Source: Dinochytrium kinnereticum
Lineage: Eukaryota > Chytridiomycota > Chytridiomycetes > Chytridiales > Chytridiaceae
Length of the DNA: 62,134 nucleotides
NCBI GenBank assembly: GCA_027604005.1
Contig: JADGJT010000077.1
Span: 12,501 to 74,634 of the forward strand
Direction of reading: 5' to 3'
The position numbers were made by a program, and so were the translations under genes. This document shows positions 30,822-36,342 of the stretch, one piece after another (the stretch's first letter is position 1; each line of letters starts with the position of its first letter). The notes under the pieces were generated by a model, which did no database searches, was not told the origin of the DNA, and saw only the letters and a list, made by a program, of their open reading frames with translations.

Positions 30822-32243
30822 TTAGATCAGACCAGCCTCGCTCATGGCGCGCTTCATGAACACACCGAGCTTTGCGGGCGACGCGGTGACGTGCACCTCG
30901 GCCTTCTCGAGGGCCGCGACCTTGTCCTCCGCCTTGCCCTTGCCCCCAGAGATGATGGCACCGGCGTGTCCCATGCGGCGACCAGGTGGCGCTGTTCTGC
31001 CAGCAATGAACGAGACAACAGGCTTCGGGTTGGGCAGCGAGAGGTTGTGCTGAATGAGGTACTCGGCGGCTTCTTCCTCAGCAGACCCACCAATTTCTCC
31101 GATGAGGATGATGCCTGTTTGGTTTTTTGTTACAAACGATTGCTGGTTCTATGAGAAAGAGTGGAGAGTATTTACCCTTGGTTTCTGGGTCCTTCAAGAA
31201 GACGTTCAGGGAGTCAATGAAGTTGGTGCCGTTGAAGGGATCACCTCCAATTCCGATGCAAAGGGACTGTCCAAGGCCGACGGCGGTGGTTTGGGCAACG
31301 GCCTCATAGGTGAGGGTTCCAGAACGCGAAACGATACCTACAAACAGCGGTCAACAGACTTGACGGCAACCTAAAAAACAAAAAAAAAACAAGAAAAAAG
31401 GAAGCTTCTCCTTTCAACTAACCAATGGTCCCCTTCTTGTGGATGTGTCCAGGCATAATTCCAATCTTGCATTCCTCAGGTTTAATGATTCCAGGGCAGT
31501 TAGGACCGATAAGCCTGGTCTTGCTCTGGGTACGCAGAACCTGAGTGACCTGAAAGCAAAAGGACGGTTACGACATAACGCAAGTCAATCTCGTTCAAAC
31601 ATACCCTGACCATGTCCTGCTGAGGAATACCCTCAGTGATGCAAACGGCCAAGGGAACTTCAGCCTCGATAGCCTCAATGATAGCTTTCGCGGCGTAAGG
31701 AGGGGGGACGTAGATGGCAGAAGCATGGGGCTTCACCTCCTGCATGGCCTATTTGCAATCGTGATCAGATCCCGCGATGCATGACAGACAAGAATATACC
31801 TCCTTGACAGACGCAAAGACAGGAAGACCGAGGTGGGTAGAACCAGCCTTCCCCGGGGACACACCGCCCACCATGTTGGTTCCATACTCAATCGCCTGCT
31901 TGGAGTGGAAGGTTCCCTGCAAAACATCATGCCACCGTTAATCGCCATTCCTCCCAAAGAGAATATCAACCACCAGCCACAGCCAATACTAGAAAACAGA
32001 AAGAGAGCCGTTATTCCTCGAACCTGCTTGCCGGTGAAGCCCTGGCAGATCACGCGGGTGTTCTTGTTGATAAGCATGTTGATCGCGGACGCCTCGTACC
32101 CGGCGGCGGTCGAGTACGCTCTCGCGCCTGCAGCACCGGCGGAGGAGGGGGGAGTCAGCGGTTAGTTATATGGGCGGCGCGGATGGGGTGATGGGCGATG
32201 TGGGATGCTTACTCTGGATCAGCACTCGTTGGTTTCGGAGCAT
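30822..32243 (-). CDS. SUCLG1: Succinyl-CoA ligase alpha subunit, mitochondrial
   Basis: Seven exons (32213-32243, 32024-32127, 31800-31916, 31605-31748, 31423-31549, 31176-31337, 30822-31114) give 325 residues. With the beta subunit it converts succinyl-CoA, ADP or GDP and phosphate to succinate and nucleoside triphosphate in the citric acid cycle. Motifs: the CoA-binding Rossmann segment [53 protein letters not shown], and the phosphohistidine loop [16 protein letters not shown]. The N-terminus [17 protein letters not shown] is a typical mitochondrial targeting sequence with a predicted cleavage near RAYS. Confidence 0.95.
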
Positions 32244-32493: not shown

Positions 32494-34651
32494 CTACACC
32501 AGGCGCTGAACAACAACGGCGTTCAAGAGGTTCGCGTCCTTCAACGTCTGCGCCTTATCCGAGAGGTCCTTGTTTGGGAACGTTGTCTGCAGAACAAAGT
32601 TCCGTCCAGCCTCGGCGGGATGCATGCTGTGAGAGCGGAATTTGGAGGTTATGTTTCGGAATGATTGCAAAAATTAAAATACCTGACGATAGAGTTGTAG
32701 AGATCTTGAACGGTATGATGGTGATTGAGCTTCACAACCATCCTGCCAGTCGCGGTAAGTTAAAAAGCTCTTGGGTGTAGTTTTCAATAAAAAAGGGTAT
32801 ACAAACCTCGTCCCATTGGCAAGTCTAACTTGAATAGAGGTGGAAGGCGCTGCCGCATCAACCGTAACGGCAGGGACCGACGGTGAAGCCACGGCTGATG
32901 CTGAAGGGAACGCACCAGGCATAGACGCACTCCCGCTTGTCGAGCCGCTCGTCACACCGCCCAGGCGATGACCAGATCCCGAGAAGGAAGCAGCCGGCTT
33001 CTTTGCAGACGGCTTGTAATCCTCCTCAAGGCGATGTTCAACTTTAACTTCCACAGGTTGCCCATATTCAACGTTGAGCAAAGATGTTGGTGCACGTCTG
33101 TCATTTCCAGGGAGGTGAGTGAAAAAGCATCACAATACTGGATTACCCGCTGTTGATAGCACGCAATATCTCCTCGTTCTTTGGATCCGAGTAGCTCATA
33201 AGGGGACCATCCTCAATGCTGAAGCCATTGCGCCAAAAGGTCAACCGTCTTTCGACCTATGATAAATTTAATAAAATCTTCAAGGCATCATCACCAACGC
33301 ATTCTTGCTCACGCTCCACCTCAGGCCCAGGGATAGACACCGACGGAGTATCGTCGCTTCCCAGTTTGAAACCTGCACAATTAATTAGTAAAAATACACC
33401 AACGTTCGAAAAAAAAAGGCACCTTGACCAGCAAAAATAGGTTTGGCCTTCTTTTCCGGCTCCTCCTCTTGCGGCTTCCTAAAGCAGTGACATGAAGGTG
33501 TAAAAGTACAGTGAACCCAGGAGCATTACACAGATTCGACAAACCTAGATGCTTTCGAGAGAATATCTTTCACAAGATCCGTAGCACCTTTCTTCTCCTT
33601 TGGCCCACCCTGCAAAGCCACCCCTGACTTCTCCCCACCAGCAAAGTAATTCTGGGACTCATCGTCGTCGTCATCCATCTGATTCGCAAGATCCCTAAAT
33701 GTTCTAATAGGTCTACTCCAGCATTATTATTCGCGTTAGTCCTTAACGCAAATATATAAATCCTGAAGAAACTGATGATAATTGGACTCACCCTTTTCCT
33801 TTTGAAGAACCAGCCGGGGCGGGTGCGGTAGCGCTCGTGCTGGCCTTGTTTGAAGCCTCAACCTCGTCCATATCGTCGTCACCCTCATCCTCAGATGGCT
33901 TCTCAAAGAATGCGGCGATGGCAGCCTAGTAGAGATCTCGCATCAGTTACCCATCAATCAAACCATGGATTAATAAAACTCACATCCAGATCGTTGGCAG
34001 AGGCCGCAAGAAAATGCTTTGCAACATCAATCGGAGCGCCAGTGACTGCGCTGAACTGGGCGACATTCTCGTCGGAAACAGCCTAAACAGCGTGATGAAA
34101 TTTAAGTGTCATTCAACAGGGAATGAAGGGTGGGAGGCTTACAACTTCCTCAGCAGAGTGTCGCTTTATCAAAACCTCAAGCTGAACCTTATCCGCGCCG
34201 CGAAGCTCATCAACCTTCTTACCCTTCTTAAAGAACATAAAGGTGGGCATGGCCGTGATGCCATACTTCTGTGCCGTCACCTGTGAGAGGAAACATCAGT
34301 GCCGAGTCCACGCGGAAACTCCGAACCTTCAGTTTGTCCACATCCACAGCCAAGAATCCAACATTAGCGTAAGTAGTAGACAGCTGCTCGACAAACGGCT
34401 TGATAACTTTGCATGGCCCGCACCTATCGATTGCAATGTTCATCACAAGGGTTGAATGCGCCACCCCTTCACATACCATTCCGCAAAGAAATCGACAACA
34501 ATCTACACCATCCATTCGCAAGCATCAAGGCAGAAGGTCAGCAACATAGCGGAGTGGCCGTCAAATACTCGCGGCTTACCAGGTCGTGCTCGCGGAAAGG
34601 TCCGATGGCCGTCTGGAACTCGTCGTCCCTTCCAATCTGCTTCACAGGCAT
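32494..34651 (-). CDS. Thioredoxin fused to p47/Shp1 (Trx-UBA-SEP-UBX)
   Basis: Thirteen exons (34580-34651, 34477-34502, 34327-34423, 34143-34280, 33984-34082, 33792-33925, 33545-33715, 33423-33478, 33320-33372, 33147-33256, 32807-33097, 32683-32742, 32494-32626) sum to 1440 nt, 479 residues. Residues 1-111 are a complete thioredoxin with W33-CGPC-K38 and cis-Pro P77. Residues 112-479 are a full-length p47/Shp1, the adaptor of the Cdc48/p97 ATPase: UBA (from [16 protein letters not shown]), acidic and phospho-acceptor linker, SEP (from [16 protein letters not shown], about 283-345) and UBX (from [10 protein letters not shown] to the end). Joining exon 4 to exon 5 is phase 0. The UBA exon has no ATG, and a stop (TAG) lies directly before it in frame, so p47 cannot start on its own there. 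Confidence 0.85.
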
Positions 34652-34678
34652 TTCGAACTGCAAAAAATTTATAACTGA
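34652..34678. promoter_or_regulatory. 27-bp divergent spacer, Trx-p47 / GRASP
   Basis: Only 27 bases separate the ATG of the thioredoxin-p47 gene (34651, minus) from the ATG of the GRASP gene (34679, plus). Initiation for at least one must lie inside the other gene or leaders must be almost absent. Co-regulation is inferred. Confidence 0.5.
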
Positions 34679-36342
34679 ATGGGCGGAGCTCAGTCAACAG
34701 ATGCCTTCGACGGGGAGGCGGAGACCCGCGGATTCCATGTGCTGAAGGTGCGTGTTGCGGGAAAGATTTCTCTGCCTGGATGTTTGCGATGAGGTGCTGA
34801 ATGAGCGTTGATGGTAGGTGCGATCGGCATCACCAGCGGAGAAGGCAGGCCTGCAGCCTTTCTTTGACTACATAATCGCTGTGAATAACTTGTAAGGATA
34901 TCCTGATCCTGATTCCTGTGTGCATGCCTAACCCACTCTGATTACAGGAGAATAGTAAGATATATTATTTCGTAAATGTGATCGCTGACGGAAGAAGGAC
35001 GATGAGGGCCTCGCGCTTATTCACGCTGTTCAAGAGAGTGATGGGGAGCCCATCTCACTTGTCGTCTGGAACATAAAGACACGATCGGCAAGAGGTTTCA
35101 TTTTTTTTAATGACTATCTTTTAATAGCAATTCTATTAGAGTTAATGCTATATCCAAACAATGGCTCCATTGGCTGCAATGTCAGATTATGCGATCACTC
35201 CCAAGCGAGTACGCATGTCTGGCATGTTTTGGCTGTCCATGAAAACAGTCCTGCACAGCAATCTGGGCTTCATCCCGAGACAGACTACATACTTGGTGTT
35301 GGCGGGCACACGCTGAGTGAAAAGGACTCTCTGTTGAACCTGGTGGAGACCAACATTGGAAGCGTCCTGAACTTTTTTGTCTACAGCTCCGTGCTTGACT
35401 CTGTAAGAGAAGTGAGGCTGATTCCTCTTAGAGGTTGGGGTGGTCCGGGATGGTATGATGCGTTTCGTTTATCTCAACATTATACGTTTCTTTGTTCTGA
35501 GTTTGCCCCATAACTATAGCCTCGGCTGCGACATTGGATTCGGACCTCTTCACGCACTACCCCACCTCATGGACCAGCAGCAGATTGAAAAGGAGAGAGA
35601 AAGCGAAAGGCAAAGATCTGCATCTCTCCCCGAAAAGGCCGACATATCCCTCGCACCACCCCCACAATCGGGCTTTATCCCCAGAAACGGCCCCATCATG
35701 AAAGTACTAACTAAGGGTCGGTCTGTTCTCCCCAACAACCCGCCGAGCGCCCAACTCATTGTGAATACGCAGTCGTCAAAAAACCATCATCATGATCACT
35801 CTCACAGCAACGGCTCTCACGACCACGGCGGGAATTCAAATAAGATGAACCAGATAGTGGCGAATAGAGTAGGGAGCTCTTTTGGGCATCAGGAGCATGA
35901 TCATGGGCATGGAGAGCATGAGGGGCATGGACACGATGAACATAGCCATCACGGTCATGATCATAGCCATGGTCAGAGAGGGCATGGGCATGAAGAGGCA
36001 CTGCCGGTTGACACGCACAAACATGATGAGCAAAACCATCATGGCCACGATCGCAGCGAAACCAGTCACGGCAGTCATGATCAGCGCGGCCACGATCACG
36101 GCCACGGTCAAAGCGGGCATGATGAGCAAAGTCATCACTCCCATGATGGTCCGAATGGCTATAGTCATGATGAGGCTTTACTCGGCGATGCTCTTGGACA
36201 AGATGAGCAGAGCCATAACGGCCATAATCACGGCAACGATCAAAATGGGCATGTGCGTGAGGATGTCCCGCGCGCTGACGCGCATGGTTCAACACATGAG
36301 CACCACCGCGTCGCGAGCGATGGCCATGACCACCACCACTAA
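34679..36342 (+). CDS. GRASP55/65 Golgi stacking protein with histidine-rich tail
   Basis: Six exons (34679-34747, 34818-34891, 34948-34954, 34998-35094, 35140-35452, 35520-36342) give 460 residues. GRASP proteins tether Golgi membranes and act in unconventional secretion. The N-terminus MGGAQS fits N-myristoylation. PDZ1 contains GFHVLKV, SPAEKAGLQPFFDYIIAVNN and ISLVVWNIKTR; PDZ2 contains GSIGCNVRLC, HVWHVLAV, NSPAQQSGL, RGWGGPG and the GRASP signature LGCDIGFGPLH. Exon 3 is only 7 nt; exon 4 could instead begin at 34995. The C-terminal 190 residues (from about 35780) hold some 50 histidines in HDH, HGH and HSHH patterns, unlike the Ser/Pro-rich tails of animal GRASPs. Confidence 0.88.

Follow-up and report, generated by a model that had tools for sequence, protein, structure and literature searches.

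Thioredoxins and adaptors at unfolding machines

The proteasome and p97 (Cdc48) are AAA+ unfolding machines, both of which meet disulfide-bonded or oxidized clients. TXNL1 is the thioredoxin of the proteasome, which human TXNL1 binds via its PITH domain; we know of no tethered reductase for p97. Two types of p97 adaptor come closest to the locus described here: p47/Shp1 (NSFL1C), with UBA, SEP, and UBX domains and SHP boxes, and the UBXN7/FAF1/FAF2 group, which combines a thioredoxin-like fold (UAS) with UBA and UBX domains on p97 and which is not known to have a SEP domain. SEP adaptors and UAS-UBX adaptors are treated as separate groups in passages of PMC9941556 and PMC8181520. The latter also states that UAS domains have no CxxC, in line with what a sequence-only reading of this DNA had claimed about the missing redox cysteines of other UBX proteins, and describes a non-redox role for the UAS domain in fatty-acid sensing. 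No protein combining thioredoxin, SEP, and UBX was found in the literature covered, the accessible part of which lies largely outside subscription journals.

A thioredoxin and a complete p47 in one open frame

From the Dinochytrium kinnereticum assembly (22.4 Mb, 558 contigs), we analyzed a window of 62,134 nucleotides, that is, the whole stretch C77:12501-74634. On its minus strand, from 34651 to 32494, 13 exons separated by GT-AG introns of 42 to 79 nt encode 485 residues plus a stop in one frame. The joining of 13 exons in frame had already been proposed and holds; the accompanying length of 479 residues does not, since 485 were counted. The features of the locus are as follows.

32494 to 34651, minus strand: Trx-p47 fusion gene, 13 exons, 485 amino acids, one open frame, GT-AG introns
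34143 to 34651, minus strand: exons 1 to 4 (34651-34580, 34502-34477, 34423-34327, 34280-34143), thioredoxin domain with WCGPC at residues 33 to 37, Asp28, and cis-Pro77
34083 to 34142, minus strand: intron 4, the fusion junction, 60 nt, GTAAGC...TTTAG, phase 0
33792 to 34082, minus strand: exons 5 and 6 (34082-33984, 33925-33792), UBA and start of the acidic linker, without initiator Met
33299 to 33712, minus strand: exons 7 to 9 (33712-33545, 33478-33423, 33372-33299), linker, AGGEKSG motif, and first SHP box, FAGQGFKLG
32807 to 33256, minus strand: exons 10 and 11 (33256-33147, 33097-32807), SEP, second SHP box, FSGSGHRLG, and start of UBX
32494 to 32742, minus strand: exons 12 and 13 (32742-32683, 32626-32494), UBX with TTFPNK loop, and stop
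34652 to 34678: gap of 27 bp between the start codons of Trx-p47 (minus strand) and a GRASP55/65-like gene (plus strand)

Pfam recognizes a thioredoxin at residues 8 to 100 (1.6e-26 for the protein), UBA_4 at 115 to 155 (6e-12), SEP at 293 to 368 (2.3e-29), and UBX at 407 to 483 (1e-16). All four exceed the cut-offs, with SEP and UBX above the curated cut-off, and the domains of the fusion are therefore not due to chance. The catalytic landmarks of the thioredoxin are D28 (the buried Asp), WCGPC at 33 to 37, and cis-Pro 77 within AMPTF (75 to 79), the motif and the proline lying in the 485-residue frame exactly where the sequence-only reading had placed them. SHP boxes (FxGxGxxLG) occupy residues 260 to 268 and 363 to 371, so that all of the thioredoxin landmarks and p97-binding motifs of p47 that we tested are retained. 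The full p47 said to follow the thioredoxin is likewise present, with UBA_4, SEP, and UBX matches and two SHP boxes in the usual order of p47/Shp1; as in p47 and Shp1 (and not as in p37), the UBA precedes the SEP domain, here behind the thioredoxin. What distinguishes the fusion from p47/Shp1 is this extra N-terminal thioredoxin and the absence of the p47 initiator Met. Nor is the arrangement that of a UAS-UBX protein: a canonical PF00085 domain with its CxxC lies N-terminal of the UBA, and a SEP domain is present. A Pfam search of the protein found no PITH domain, and only one cysteine, C288, exists beyond the CGPC pair. When the genome was searched with the SEP profile, both of the two matches fell in the Trx-p47 gene, which is thus probably the only p47 of this genome. 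By membership, the fusion is a p47 to which a thioredoxin, probably of TXNL1 type, has been added.

Neighboring genes

Separated from the Trx-p47 start codon by the 27-bp gap lies a GRASP55/65-like gene (34679-36342, plus strand; PF04495, 5e-30), which starts with MGGAQS; given so short a distance between divergent starts, the two genes would share a short bidirectional promoter region. Both p47 and GRASP act in mammalian Golgi reassembly, according to a passage of PMC5710388, and the promoter region in common may be a coincidence. A downstream open frame carries a repetitive stretch that is rich in His and Asp and matches no Pfam family. At 31500-32243 (minus strand), gene pieces with two CoA_binding matches, which presumably resemble succinate-CoA ligase alpha, have a putative start 250 bp past the p47 stop.

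The same fusion in Phlyctochytrium planicorne and probably in Chytridium lagenaria

A search for p47 homologues (E ≤1e-3, with the 7994 candidates sharing most words scored) yielded 165 matches, and among the best 120, which were examined, one carries a thioredoxin. This protein of 486 residues, P0001 (HDU97_005900 of Phlyctochytrium planicorne), presumably stems from computational gene prediction; it has the same architecture, annotated as thioredoxin-UBA-SEP-UBX, and is 66% identical over 100% of the length. Residues 1 to 155, which comprise the thioredoxin, the junction, and the UBA, align without a gap, and the linker has an identical length. WCGPC, the buried Asp, and the cis-Pro are all retained in P0001, and the CGPC pair provides its only cysteines. 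The combination of an apparently active thioredoxin with a full p47, first read from the D. kinnereticum sequence, therefore recurs in P. planicorne, and Chytridium lagenaria is a probable third case.

Two further queries, whose length limits excluded full-length fusions, covered the thioredoxin-UBA part (61 proteins among 112 candidates) and the C-terminal part of p47 (320 matches, of which the best 120 were examined). In C. lagenaria, P0130 is a partial thioredoxin that starts exactly at CGPC, and P0187 is a 160-residue p47 fragment, 71% identical; the contigs that carry them are equally long (419,988 bases), which makes it probable that the two share one scaffold. P0187 begins at an internal Met (corresponding to residue 308 of the D. 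kinnereticum fusion) and lacks part of the UBX domain; an internal start of this kind is what gene-finding software should produce for a p47 that has no start codon of its own. In P0130, the reading frame is lost across the cis-Pro segment, and the C. lagenaria copy, or its sequence, may therefore be damaged. Another chytrid thioredoxin within a longer protein, P0121 of Cladochytrium replicatum, differs from the fusion in being a tandem double thioredoxin of 226 residues, with CGPC in both halves and no p47 domains.

The standalone p47 of Irineochytrium annulatum has a Met of its own and starts with MADEEQNIASF, from which it follows that exon 5 corresponds approximately to p47 from the second residue onward. 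According to the NCBI taxonomy, P. planicorne, C. lagenaria, and I. annulatum all belong to the Chytridiaceae.

Two observations on other p47 models were made along the way. Seven of them (P0063, P0072, P0073, P0083, P0093, P0097, and P0100), from Chytriomyces, Rhizoclosmatium, and Obelidium, begin with MSNIR... and have no UBA in precomputed Pfam; a loss of the UBA in another chytrid clade is possible, judging from these sequences. Three more (P0010, P0034, and P0080) are joined to unrelated sequence, the partners in this set being a ribosomal S9-type domain, a quinone reductase-like sequence, and a long N-terminal region without a Pfam match. These joins may reflect run-on annotation and caution that a gene model showing a fusion is not always correct.

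Probable origin of the thioredoxin domain in a single fusion event

The thioredoxin-fold loci of this genome comprise, besides the fusion, a free thioredoxin (C12), a WCPPC type with a leader-like start (C15), a tail-anchored type (C2), two PDI-like loci (C453 and C309), and TXNL1 itself, with a thioredoxin followed by PITH (C86); PITH matches are found at C86 and C222. The tail-anchored-looking thioredoxin (L024, G000:C2:57900-59500) has WCGPC and then a C-terminal hydrophobic tail.

The first three exons measure 72, 26, and 97 nt in the fusion versus 75, 26, and 97 nt in TXNL1, with identical phases and at the same residues: intron 1 sits before VVDF, intron 2 interrupts the codon for Trp in WCGPC, and intron 3 follows the lysine in VDVDxLK. 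None of these three TXNL1-type introns occurs in the stretches read of the C12 and C2 thioredoxins. Introns 1 to 3 being common to the fusion and TXNL1, the fused thioredoxin is probably a TXNL1-type domain, a point that the sequence-only reading had not made. In a thioredoxin tree of 37 rows, the fused thioredoxins of the window, P. planicorne, and C. lagenaria form a clade (98/92) that adjoins the TXNL1 of this genome (93/73). A wider clade of 11 rows (90/92) holds all four thioredoxin-PITH rows together with four rows without PITH (P0126, P0136, P0147, and P0150), and the forks inside it are weak (87/48 and 84/0). The introns, in combination with this tree of moderate support, make TXNL1 the probable source. 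Descent from the free thioredoxin at C12 was also considered and is supported neither by the introns nor by the tree. The presence of that free thioredoxin rules out that the fused one is the sole cytosolic-type thioredoxin of the genome, and the fused domain consequently looks specialized.

The fusion thus has in common with TXNL1/Txl1 a probable thioredoxin subtype, three intron positions, the CGPC motif, and a tether to an ATP-driven unfolding machine; it differs in having p47 in place of PITH, so that the machine to be expected is p97 and not the proteasome. As TXNL1 serves the proteasome, a proteasome-type redoxin seems to have been moved onto a p97 adaptor.

The p47 tree holds 31 rows, 4 of 35 having been dropped because they had no LTFW anchor (P0022, P0041, P0019, and P0254). 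The three p47s of the fused lineage form a clade (100/99) with Irineochytrium as its sister (95/74), and the next branch is Blyttiomyces JEL0837, a p47 model without its N-terminus. The congruence of the thioredoxin and p47 clades points to a single fusion event, which probably took place after the split from Irineochytrium, as far as these sequences go.

Structure models

In the model of P0001, block means of pLDDT are 90 to 98 over residues 1 to 110. The last thioredoxin helix is predicted to end at 110 and the first UBA helix to begin at 115, which would place the enzyme immediately next to the ubiquitin-binding domain; the linker after the UBA is long and of low confidence. A first model, in which the thioredoxin rows were misaligned (pLDDT <50 over 1-59 and 72-88), was used for the p47 domains alone, and the UBA is confident in that model only, not in the second. 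With a pTM of 0.35 to 0.38, the models say nothing about domain arrangement. In a Foldseek search with the P0001 model, thioredoxin chains rank first, and the highest target-normalized TM-score among the 50 listed, 0.95, belongs to 1gh2, the title of which reads catalytic domain of new human thioredoxin-like protein and which we take to be TXNL1. The best solved relatives are chains named NSFL1 cofactor p47.

A proposed role at p97

Starting from the observed sequence and architecture, the recurrence in a relative, and the introns in common with TXNL1, we infer that the gene is expressed as one protein, that this protein docks, and that it is redox-active towards a particular target. We favor, with moderate confidence, a chimeric gene of single origin that would encode a p97/Cdc48 adaptor with a tethered, intact thioredoxin reducing targets at p97. 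TXNL1-type 5' exons, encoding a thioredoxin without its PITH anchor, would have been joined at phase 0 to p47/Shp1 at about the second p47 residue, and the product would be a p97/Cdc48 adaptor with a catalytically intact thioredoxin tethered directly before the UBA. The SHP boxes and the UBX domain would dock this protein on the N-domain of p97, which, with the p97-binding motifs and the UBA kept, is the expected default, while the client would be held by UBA and SEP. The thioredoxin, recharged by thioredoxin reductase, could then reduce disulfides or oxidized thiols at p97, either in clients before threading or at the Cdc48 N-domain Cys near the adaptor interface. With no cysteine other than the CGPC pair in P0001, and a single additional one in the window protein, the thioredoxin probably acts on another molecule. 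The genome has a thioredoxin-reductase-like gene (C241), found in two pieces of 293.5 and 47.8 bits, each below the whole-model cut-off of 343, and its Cdc48 has retained a Cys both in the N-domain (VHACSDIKY, equivalent to human 105) and in the Walker A motif of D2.

In yeast, PMC12137173 places Cys115 of Cdc48 close to the interface with the UBX domain of Shp1 and reports its reversible oxidation on entry into stationary phase, a phase in which association of Cdc48 with Trx1-3 is also increased; a C115S substitution abolished Shp1 binding by isothermal titration calorimetry (ITC), and Cys115 oxidation was linked to more Shp1 association. Yeast Cys115 would correspond to human Cys105. Given the direction of the effect on Shp1, a tethered reductase could loosen docking instead of helping it. 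For human p97, oxidation of Cys522 is mentioned in a passage of a review and in the title of a reference, and PMC12700817 presents a model with the human TXNL1 thioredoxin close to where substrates enter the proteasome motor. TXNL1 acts both as a reductase and as a chaperone independent of ATP (PMC10570131), and the fusion would have the same part at p97. By analogy, we tentatively picture a redox-armed unfoldase adaptor, in which reduction of client disulfides might be coupled to threading and which might in addition reset the oxidized Cdc48 N-domain Cys that governs Shp1 binding.

The same fusion could instead use its thioredoxin mainly without redox chemistry, as a holdase for clients at p97 or as a docking surface like the UAS domain of UBXN7. 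The fused domain is, after all, probably of the TXNL1 type, and two papers describe a chaperone activity of human TXNL1 that needs neither ATP nor cysteines (PMC10570131) and the docking of the UBXN7 UAS on RING domains (PMC10080908). However, WCGPC, the buried Asp, and the cis-Pro are kept in the window gene and in P0001 alike, and scaffolding would not need them; we consider this explanation unlikely, although not negligible.

The junction and the products of the locus

A single product from thioredoxin to UBX depends on intron 4. No more than 60 nt lie between the thioredoxin and p47 parts, and the next putative start on the same strand is 250 nt beyond the p47 stop. The UBA exon (34082-33984) contains no in-frame Met, and the codon directly 5' of it is a TAG at 34085-34083, in the acceptor itself, both of which agree with the first description of the junction. 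That description had concluded that the UBA can be read solely from the thioredoxin start. An enumeration of alternative starts (two exons, phase 0, intron of 35 to 500 nt) found no conventional separate p47 start upstream of exon 5 but listed 52 two-exon starts that could in principle feed exon 5.

These starts raise a second alternative, namely, that the locus yields several products, with splicing giving rise to a free thioredoxin and/or a thioredoxin-free p47 and the fusion being one isoform. Reading through intron 4 adds VSLPPFIPC before a TGA, and retention would thus, after 9 residues, terminate a free thioredoxin of 120 amino acids in total. Exons 1 and 5 are in phase, a splice that is among the 52 enumerated, and an ATG at 34479-34477, beside a GTATGT donor, would provide an in-frame p47 start if spliced to exon 5. 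In a leave-one-out scoring over the 12 introns of the gene itself, a training set too small to be decisive, the intron 4 donor (3.7 bits) falls in the lower half and the acceptor (0.2) is the lowest of all 12; five nearby GT sites score better than its donor and five AG sites better than its acceptor. Neither intron 4 nor four other introns of the gene contain a branch-point-like motif. As far as they go, these splice scores are slightly unfavorable to the junction. On the other hand, options of this kind arise readily by chance, as their number indicates, and the gene model of P. planicorne comprises the whole fusion, with a linker of identical length in both species. Thioredoxin-free or p47-free splice forms are possible from the sequence, but a locus with several products strikes us as unlikely. 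The counterevidence bears less on the architecture than on the idea that the locus makes one constitutive redox product.

That adjacent thioredoxin and p47 genes were mis-joined by gene modeling or assembly, for which the lowest-scoring acceptor of the 12 and the better-scoring sites nearby might speak, is highly improbable in view of the recurrence in P. planicorne, the likely linkage in C. lagenaria, the mere 60 nt between the parts, the UBA without Met and preceded by an in-frame stop, and the congruent thioredoxin and p47 clades.

Implications

If a p97 adaptor with a tethered thioredoxin is indeed what this gene encodes, as we favor, this natural fusion of Trx and p47 hints at the adaptor and the site for which a reductase is of benefit, and one polypeptide would suffice to test the redox switch proposed for the N-domain of Cdc48. 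The fusion would also show domain shuffling between cofactors of the proteasome and of p97, traceable via intron positions.
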